Shown: piece after piece, positions 3,844 to 8,961 of the stretch
Numbering within the stretch: position 1 is the first letter of the stretch
Layout of the letters: each line of letters begins with the position of its first letter
From: a virus
Direction: 5' to 3' (one strand)
DNA: 43,866 bases
Virus record (IMG/VR): IMGVR_UViG_3300049434_000092
Location: 1 to 43,866 of that record
The notes under the pieces: model-generated
Seen by the model: the letters and a program-made list of their open reading frames with translations, nothing else
Told to the model about the DNA's origin: nothing
Database searches by the model: none
Translations under genes and position numbers: made by a program

Positions 3844-4518
3844 TCATACCGGCAGCGCCTCCTGCTCTTCGGCTTCATGGGCGGCGGCCTGCGCCGGGGC
3901 GGCGGCGGCGAGCTCGAGCTTCGCGGTGTGCTCGCGGACGTCGGCGCGCCAGGCCGGGGTGCCGACGGCGGCGCCGGTGGGGCTGGTCCAAGTGAACATG
4001 TGCCACCAATATTTGTGGTGGACCGCCTCGAGGCGCTCGAGCTGCTCGCGGGCGGCGGCGGCGGTCATGCGGCCGCGCTTGACGCGCTCCGGATCGTAGG
4101 TGCGGCGGAAATGGAGCTCGCGGCGGAGGACGTGGATCTTCTCCTCCCATGAGGCGCCGCCTTCGCCCGGGGCCGCGGCGGACACGGGCAGCGGATTGTC
4201 GGGCAGCGCGAGCCAGTCGCCGCCGGCGGCGAAGTGGGCGCGGCAGGCGGCGACGTGGGTGCGCTCGACGGTGAGATCGGCGGCGATCGCGCGCAGCACG
4301 GCGGCGGTGCGATCCGCCTCCGCGCGGGTGAGCGTGCCGCGATCGATCCGGCCCGGGGCGGCGCGCGCGGCCTCGGCGATGGTGCGATCGATCTCCTCGA
4401 TCAGCCGGCGGCCGCCCTGGGGCGCGTCGAACGCGGGGTGATCGCCATCGGCCTCGTCGAAATCGAGCAGGGTGCGCGAGCCGGGGGAGTAATCCTGGAA
4501 GTCGTAGCGGAGGGTCAT
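3844..4518 (-). CDS. hypothetical helical protein coupled to the topoisomerase VI-A-like gene
   Basis: 224 aa from the ATG at 4518, set by the ATGA overlap (4515-4518) with the upstream gene. Mostly helical. The region around residues 135-170 (SWEEKIHVLRRELHFRR, then KRGRMTAAAAREQLERLE) resembles a helical motif seen in many small phage proteins of unknown role. The Ala-rich C terminus is probably flexible. Translational coupling suggests it may act with the topoisomerase VI-A-like protein, but nothing in the sequence proves this. Confidence 0.65.
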   Translation of the reverse strand: MTLRYDFQDYSPGSRTLLDFDEADGDHPAFDAPQGGRRLIEEIDRTIAEAARAAPGRIDRGTLTRAEADRTAAVLRAIAADLTVERTHVAACRAHFAAGGDWLALPDNPLPVSAAAPGEGGASWEEKIHVLRRELHFRRTYDPERVKRGRMTAAAAREQLERLEAVHHKYWWHMFTWTSPTGAAVGTPAWRADVREHTAKLELAAAAPAQAAAHEAEEQEALPV

Positions 4519-5414
4519 CGACAGAAATCCTTCACATCTTCCCACCGCGCGGACACGGTTTGGAGGGTGGTGCGGTTCTCGGTTTCGTCGCCAGCGCGCT
4601 CGGCCCATAGCTCATGGTCGACGAGCGACCGGATCTCGACGTCGATGAGCTGATCGATCGTCCGGGGATCGAGCGCATCCAGCTCCCAGCTCGACCCTCC
4701 AAAGCGCGCTACATACGGCCCGGCCCGGCTGTCAGTCATTTTTGCCGGGTTGGGCGGCGGGCGATAGCGCTCAACCTGGTCCCAATTCAGGGCTAGCCGG
4801 CGCACCTCCACCACTCCGCAGGCGAACATGGTGAGGCGGTCGGCATTGTCGCGCGTCATGTCGATCCCGGAAGGATCATGGTCGCCGAGATGCAAGACGA
4901 TCGGCTTGATGTCCTGATCGATCAGATTGCGGAAGCGCCACCCGGCGGCATATTGTTCGGACTGGGAGGAATAGCCGCGGCAGGCAAAGTAGGGCACGCG
5001 CCAGCGATTGCATGCGGGCTCGACAACCCCGATCAAGGCGTCCTTTTCAATCCAGACCTCGACCCGGCAGTCTTGTCCAACCCACAGGTCTTCCTTGTAC
5101 TGGGCAGCGACCGCATCCATGATCGCCTGCGGGTTTTCCCAGACGCTTGGAGACCGGACGTTGCGGGTGCGATCCTCGATCGCGCTCCAATCGATAAGGC
5201 CGGCAAGCCGGGCATCATTGACGATCGATCCGAGCCGATCATAGGATTGTTGCCGGTTCGGGAGCAGGTCACGGGCGACGAACTGGTAATAGAGCTGTCG
5301 CAGGGTCAGGGTGAAGCCTTGGGCGAGATAATCGTCGATGATCTCGATCGCCTGGTCGATGATCGCCCGCGACGATCCGCGGAACTCGCGGGTGATGAAC
5401 TGCTCGCAGGCCAT
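4515..5414 (-). CDS. stand-alone topoisomerase VI subunit A/Spo11-like protein (Mini-A type)
   Basis: 299 aa, ATG at 5414. The N-terminal winged-helix region holds TLRQLYYQFVAR (37-48), matching the R-x-[LI]-Y-Y pattern around the catalytic tyrosine of TopoVI-A and Spo11; Y43 is the candidate nucleophile. It is followed by a Toprim domain: E123 in WIEKDA and D178-x-D180 in HLGDHDPSGID. ELDALDP at about 244-250 is another TopoVI-A-like segment. At about 300 aa it is shorter than TopoVI-A (about 360-390), and no B subunit (GHKL ATPase) is encoded nearby. The family therefore suggests metal-dependent DNA cleavage or topology change without a known ATPase partner. Free TopoVI-A-like proteins (Mini-A) are known from mobile elements; their phage role is unclear. 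The gene overlaps its downstream neighbour by ATGA. Confidence 0.8.
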   Translation of the reverse strand: MACEQFITREFRGSSRAIIDQAIEIIDDYLAQGFTLTLRQLYYQFVARDLLPNRQQSYDRLGSIVNDARLAGLIDWSAIEDRTRNVRSPSVWENPQAIMDAVAAQYKEDLWVGQDCRVEVWIEKDALIGVVEPACNRWRVPYFACRGYSSQSEQYAAGWRFRNLIDQDIKPIVLHLGDHDPSGIDMTRDNADRLTMFACGVVEVRRLALNWDQVERYRPPPNPAKMTDSRAGPYVARFGGSSWELDALDPRTIDQLIDVEIRSLVDHELWAERAGDETENRTTLQTVSARWEDVKDFCR

Positions 5415-8161: not shown

Positions 8162-8506
8162 CGGGACTTCGACGGGGGCGCCGAGGCCGTAGCGATCGCG
8201 CAGCATCTCGCGGGCATCGGCGGCAGCCCCGGCCAAGACGCGGAGGCCAAGGATTTGGCGCTCGACCTTCAGGAGATTGTGGCGAAGGATAATCGGCCAT
8301 CCGCCCTCGTGCAAAAGGAGGCGGGCTTCGCGCAGCGCGCCGTCGACATAGTCGCGGAAGGCCGTCTCCACTAGCGATGGGCAGTACGTCGTCATGGCCT
8401 TAGCTTCGAGGACGGCGAGGATCTCCAGATCCTGCAGCCAGCGCATGCATTGGGCAATGATCTCGAGCTGGGATTGGCGGGTCCAGCCTCGAGCCAGGTT
8501 GCTCAC
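8147..8506 (-). CDS. hypothetical helical protein downstream of the Xre repressor
   Basis: 119 aa from a GTG at 8506 overlapping the repressor stop as GTGA (8503-8506). Entirely helical by composition (SQLEIIAQCMRWLQDLEILAV near the N terminus, GALREARLLLHEGGWPIILR in the middle). No known motif. Coupling to the repressor suggests it could modulate the lysogeny switch or encode a superinfection function; this is inference. Confidence 0.6.
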   Translation of the reverse strand: MSNLARGWTRQSQLEIIAQCMRWLQDLEILAVLEAKAMTTYCPSLVETAFRDYVDGALREARLLLHEGGWPIILRHNLLKVERQILGLRVLAGAAADAREMLRDRYGLGAPVEVPNITP

Positions 8507-8868
8507 GCAGCCTCTTCGTCCGGTTGCGGCGAGCGATAGGTGGGGATGACGGCCGCGCTGACGCGCTGCAGGGTGTCGCGCTGCGTCTGGTCCGCGGTGC
8601 GGTAGCGGCCGATCAGCGCGCGCTCGTCGTCGGCGAGGCGATCCGGGTTGTCATCCTCGTCGAGCAGATCCGCGACGCTGCAACCAAGCTCGCGAGCAAA
8701 GATCTTCATCCAGTCGAGATTGAGCGGCCGGCGCCCGTTCTCATACTGACTGACGCTTTCCTGGGTCGTGCCGGTGCGATCGGCCAGCTCCCCCTGGGTG
8801 AGCCCCGCTTCCTTACGCATCGTACGAAGTCTGTTGCCTGGTCGCATAACCAGTACAGAATATGCCAT
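8503..8868 (-). CDS. Xre-family phage repressor (CI/C-like)
   Basis: 121 aa if started at the ATG at 8868; an ATG at 8847 gives 114 aa. Neither has a Shine-Dalgarno, and the best promoter would place the transcript start near 8868, so the message may be leaderless. Residues about 10-65 form a classic helix-turn-helix domain (LRTMRKEAGLTQGELADRTG, then TTQESVSQYENGRRPL). There is no S24 peptidase domain, unlike the repressor at 42072. It is divergent from the Cro-like gene at 8965 and heads the leftward operon containing the integrase. Expected role: maintain lysogeny and repress the rightward early promoter. Confidence 0.85.
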   Translation of the reverse strand: MAYSVLVMRPGNRLRTMRKEAGLTQGELADRTGTTQESVSQYENGRRPLNLDWMKIFARELGCSVADLLDEDDNPDRLADDERALIGRYRTADQTQRDTLQRVSAAVIPTYRSPQPDEEAA

Positions 8869-8961
8869 GGCGTGATATTCTGCACCCGCTCTGTCGTTAT
8901 GTCCATTGACGAAATATAACGGGCCGACATAACCCTGCTGTTCTTGCGGACATGGGTGATT
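8856..8961. promoter_or_regulatory. divergent lysogeny switch: operators and early promoters
   Basis: Contains an 8-bp inverted repeat CAGAATAT/ATATTCTG (8856-8863, 8875-8882) and another, GTTATGTC/GACATAAC (8896-8903, 8926-8933). A leftward promoter can be drawn with TGGACA (complement of 8900-8905) and AGAATA (complement of 8876-8881), 18 bp apart. A rightward -35 TTGACG lies at 8907-8912, with a weak -10 overlapping the second operator half near 8929-8935. This is the arrangement expected between a repressor and a Cro-like gene. Confidence 0.6.

Follow-up and report, generated by a model that had tools for sequence, protein, structure and literature searches.

Spo11 is the enzyme that starts meiotic recombination. 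The Mini-A family reportedly goes back to Takahashi et al. in 2020 (NAR Genom Bioinform 2:lqz021). According to the reviews and later papers from which its description is taken here (PMC7614492, PMC8185306, PMC8084294, PMC11302465), Mini-A proteins are truncated, Top6A-like, about 300 aa long and carried by viruses or mobile elements without a B subunit; the example phage is Pseudomonas phage NP1 (PMC7614492, Fig. 4A). Topoisomerase VIII brings its own B function, a GHKL ATPase, in most cases fused into the same protein (PMC8185306 and background knowledge). Mouse SPO11 dimers cleave DNA in vitro without a partner, with YY137-138, E224, D277 and D279 as catalytic residues (PMC11922746), while in M. 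mazei Top6A active-site roles are assigned to R102, Y106, E202, D254 and D256 (PMC13040014).

Mini-A is an already described family, common in phages and biochemically uncharacterised, and the gene considered here is a new member of it. It lies in IMG/VR record IMGVR_UViG_3300049434_000092, whose whole stretch of 43,866 nucleotides is called the window; Table 1 lists its features.

Table 1. Position of the Mini-A gene, its predicted functional residues and the adjoining ORF in the window.
Feature	Position	Strand	Evidence
Mini-A (TopoVI-A/Spo11-like) gene	4515..5414	-	phrog_6247, E=2.8e-110; NP1 gp49, 49% identity; AF2 pLDDT 94.4; PDB fold matches
R39 codon (= Top6A R102, electrostatic-clasp arginine)	5298..5300	-	115/115; alignment; R102 role PMC13040014
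Y43 codon, predicted catalytic tyrosine (= M. mazei Top6A Y106)	5286..5288	-	115/115; MAFFT alignment; kept in Streptomyces plasmid homologue
E123 codon, Toprim metal-binding glutamate (Top6A E202, mouse SPO11 E224)	5046..5048	-	115/115; alignment; PMC13040014, PMC11922746
D178-H179-D180 codons, Toprim DxD (Top6A D254/D256)	4875..4883	-	both D 115/115; alignment
ELDALDP (244-250) codons	4665..4685	-	E244 and D246 115/115
Downstream overlapping ORF, 224 aa, near-orphan	3844..4518	-	tblastn: no match in other Mini-A loci; none in viral contigs; one weak match

A new member of the Mini-A family

The gene runs from an ATG at 5414 to a stop codon at 4517-4515 and encodes 299 aa; the ORF of the original prediction is real, and its strand is here corrected to minus. 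Conservation at the protein level with homologues in phages and genomes supports the reading frame. A profile search matched the product over its full length to PHROG 6247, 'DNA topoisomerase', and BLASTP gave an alignment of 280 aa with gp49 of phage NP1 (E=4e-87). The NP1 record annotates gp49 only as a DNA topoisomerase, and we infer that it is the Mini-A meant in PMC7614492. Because NP1 is named there as a Mini-A example and gp49 is 49% identical to the window protein, the latter is assigned to Mini-A, of which it is, judged by sequence, a typical member. Its length agrees with the family median of 300 aa, the tyrosine occupies a median position of 43 in the family, and its gene is borne by a phage record in which B-subunit domains were not found.

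Relatives of the protein number at least 509 among 600 viral candidate stretches and at least 190 in species genomes, and tblastn placed them in at least 76 phage and at least 40 plasmid records. A distant branch, sharing about 27-31% identity, is often met on plasmids of Streptomyces, such as that of Streptomyces canus (NZ_CP109448.1). Mini-A is widespread, yet no report on the activity of any Mini-A protein was found in the accessible literature.

Conservation was assessed by aligning 115 sequences taken from phages and genomes, the homologues being 45-71% identical to the window protein. R39, Q40, Y43, E123, K124, D178, D180, K225, D228, R230, E244 and D246 did not vary in any of them, and Y42 was kept in 112, being replaced by F in two and by H in one. 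Given this invariance, the RQLYY and Toprim motifs are not a product of chance. One Streptomyces plasmid homologue that was aligned, 30% identical, has W at the position of Y42 and keeps Y43. Under three MAFFT modes, the R, Y, E, D and D of archaeal Topo VI-A aligned with R39, Y43, E123, D178 and D180, which correspond to M. mazei Top6A R102, Y106, E202, D254 and D256. The protein therefore combines a winged-helix tyrosine preceded by a conserved arginine with a Toprim glutamate and DxD pair, as type IIB A subunits do. The fourth acidic residue, which in Top6A is E342 of the R-E clasp, may correspond to E244 or to D246; the alignment does not place this position.

The fold points in the same direction. 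In a PDB fold search, the AlphaFold2 model, itself confident, gave three matches at E<=0.001, all of them Topo VI A subunits (1d3y, 9o0g). Whole-chain TM-scores were low, at about 0.37, and in hhalign the tyrosine region alone aligned with Topo VI-A, the profile-profile match being weak outside the tyrosine helix; the relation to Topo VI-A is therefore distant, and the domains may be arranged differently. A PDB sequence search with the window protein found nothing, the protein fell below the cut-off of Pfam TP6A_N (which matched 19 of the 115 members weakly), and in a viral fold library the single significant match was partial and concerned an unnamed protein.

The original prediction had read the gene as TopoVI-A/Spo11-type, stand-alone and Mini-A-like, citing RQLYY at residues 39-43, E123, D178-x-D180 and an ELDALDP segment. 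All of these residues are present, with H between the two aspartates and ELDALDP at 244-250. Y43, on whose conservation together with that of Y42 the reading was made to depend, is invariant, and the fold match is to Topo VI-A instead of an unrelated Toprim nuclease. This core reading was right, and with NP1 gp49 49% identical, membership is stronger than 'like'.

Genomic setting of Mini-A

In the window, Mini-A has a repressor-like gene (8503-8877) on one side and an integrase (996-2342) on the other, all on the same strand, while primase-like genes occupy the opposite strand. Upstream of Mini-A, a strong terminator-like hairpin on the minus strand (6151-6126), built of ten all-GC pairs with a T-rich tail behind them, may split the supposed operon, and the placement in an early operon that had been put forward is no more than putative. 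No known recombination gene adjoining Mini-A was found among the genes scanned in the window. On the minus strand, ORF 2369-2977 encodes 202 aa, of which the first ~100 correspond to the C-terminal portion of several larger PHROG families whose function is unknown.

The Mini-A gene, within the segment 4451-5450, is the lowest-GC stretch of the window, with 61.8% against 69.2% (the lowest of 860 segments of 900 bp), which suggests recent acquisition. Its closest relative, at 72% identity, is found in Sphingomonas sp. S2M10, where only one further gene nearby is similar to anything in the window. Together, the low GC content and the changed surroundings of this relative suggest that Mini-A moves between phages.

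Among annotated phages, the context of Mini-A is DNA metabolism: ligase, Sak4 annealase and Cas4 exonuclease in NP1; Cas4 exonuclease, a recombinase, a RuvC-like resolvase and SSB in Fizzles; DNA polymerase in RDJL2; and thymidylate synthase in SPN19. A PHROG tally of near neighbours (top 25 families) included exonucleases, Sak4, primases, HNH, ParB and methyltransferases, with no structural gene; that of distant neighbours included terminase and head genes, both tallies being too sparse for statistics. The YqaJ recombination exonuclease was considered as a regular companion and rejected, as it occurs in 5 of 50 records only. Since neighbours are diverse, any one family being present in 9 of 162 loci at most, the role proposed below draws on the general context.

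Absence of topo VI-B and the overlapping neighbour

Searches for the Topo-VIb transducer (PF09239) and HATPase_c (PF02518) found neither in 50 Mini-A phage records, namely the window phage and 49 others, whereas the controls were detected. Six of these records are complete phage genomes, and many viral records may be fragments; absence from one record is weak evidence, but absence from all 50, six of them complete, is not. PF09239 was likewise missing from the 23 sampled bacterial genomes that carry Mini-A, and was present in one of two sampled archaeal genomes that do. The archaeal MAG of Candidatus Methanimicrococcus labiotermitis holds a Mini-A gene together with its own topo VI-B, and a TP6A_N match was not found in this MAG. 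The GHKL ATPase B subunit or domain that characterises topoisomerase VI and VIII holoenzymes was thus not found in the window phage or its relatives, in agreement with the earlier statement that no GHKL partner is encoded. Mini-A phages and sampled bacterial hosts alike lack a topo VI-B transducer; this is the new evidence contributed here, and it sharpens the test of partner-free function.

The original prediction also held that a partner is needed and that the coupled neighbour at 3844-4518 may supply it. The need for a partner is weakened by the partner-free DNA cleavage of mouse SPO11 dimers (PMC11922746), and the candidate fared poorly. The Mini-A stop codon overlaps the start codon of this ORF in an ATGA, which suggests translational coupling and would suit a B-subunit-like protein forming one complex with Mini-A. 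However, tblastn found no match to the ORF in any other Mini-A locus fetched, none was found in viral contigs, and its sole relative, a weak one, comes from a phage contig in which Mini-A gave no significant match; the protein has no PHROG, Pfam, NCBIfam or PADLOC identity either. On co-occurrence the ORF is rejected as the missing partner, and a complex of the two proteins is highly improbable. Clustering of neighbourhoods was equally unproductive of a universal partner, as no family within 2.5 kb of Mini-A exceeded the same 9 of 162 loci.

Proposed activity and comparison with known systems

On balance, Mini-A probably resembles Spo11 in its action: as a homodimer with no B subunit it would cut DNA through Y43 and so contribute to phage recombination or replication. 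The computed components of this picture are family membership, invariance of the catalytic set, the topo VI-A fold match and the absence of topo VI-B from the tested phages and sampled bacterial hosts. The protein would be a minimal type IIB topoisomerase A subunit, formed by a tyrosine-bearing winged helix and a Toprim domain, and its presumed homodimer would carry two hybrid active sites. With cleavage chemistry predicted from the conserved residues, Y43 of one chain would attack DNA that the other chain binds at its E123/D178/D180 metal site. The products would be nicks or double-strand breaks of the Spo11 kind, with covalent 5' phosphotyrosyl links; they would be reversible and made without an ATPase B subunit, and may feed phage recombination or recombination-dependent replication, as the genomic context suggests. 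It is put forward only tentatively that Mini-A is a self-sufficient Spo11-type break-maker whose covalent protein-linked breaks, made without a B subunit, start phage recombination; if true, a Spo11 core could work in its own right, apart from topo VI holoenzymes.

Mini-A might instead work alone as a topoisomerase, relaxing or decatenating phage DNA through nick swivelling or through strand passage that needs no ATP, and not be a maker of recombination breaks. A Topo VIII reportedly relaxes DNA without ATP (PMC7614492), SPO11 is able to reseal single-strand breaks (PMC11922746), and Mini-A stands among replication genes in phages such as RDJL2 and NP1. This reading is nevertheless unlikely, as the tested phages offer no topo VI-B transducer or ATPase for strand passage and the sampled bacterial hosts no transducer. 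Nuclease activity against competing DNA, be it of other phages, plasmids or the host chromosome, would liken Mini-A to the related Toprim nuclease JetD/MksG of Wadjet, which the NP1 Mini-A matches weakly (E=0.0014), and would accord with a compositionally foreign gene whose surroundings differ even between close relatives. It is an improbable role, since the window protein had no PADLOC match (JetD profile), the neighbour tally (top 25 families) held no SMC-type JetABC genes, and the invariant tyrosine and the PDB matches indicate Topo VI-A over a hydrolytic Toprim nuclease.

With no topo VI-B transducer provided by the phages or by the bacterial hosts sampled, Mini-A offers a clean natural test of the activity of a lone Spo11/Topo VI-A core.

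Set against known systems, Mini-A shows both likenesses and differences. With JetD/MksG of Wadjet/MksBEFG it shares a distant Toprim similarity, seen as a weak match of the NP1 homologue only; JetD, however, works with SMC-type JetABC, which was not seen near Mini-A in the top 25 neighbour families. Topoisomerase VIII is likewise type IIB and carried on mobile elements, but it has a B function, and none was found here. The catalytic set is that of Spo11 (mouse YY137-138, E224, D277/D279), and the proposed partner-free cleavage is that of mouse SPO11, whereas Spo11 belongs to eukaryotic meiosis and in vivo has partners of its own dedicated to it. Top6A shares the fold match (1d3y, 9o0g), the TLR[EQ]xYY helix and the aligned Toprim E and DxD; in contrast, the window Mini-A has at least 50 fewer residues ahead of the tyrosine (Y43 versus 94-110), lacks Top6B and has diverged in sequence. 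The closest likeness is to the Mini-A of NP1, with which the window protein shares 49% identity over nearly its full length, size, catalytic residues, a phage-borne gene and the absence of a B subunit; nothing substantive separates the two, the window gene lying in a high-GC phage beside an unrelated near-orphan gene.
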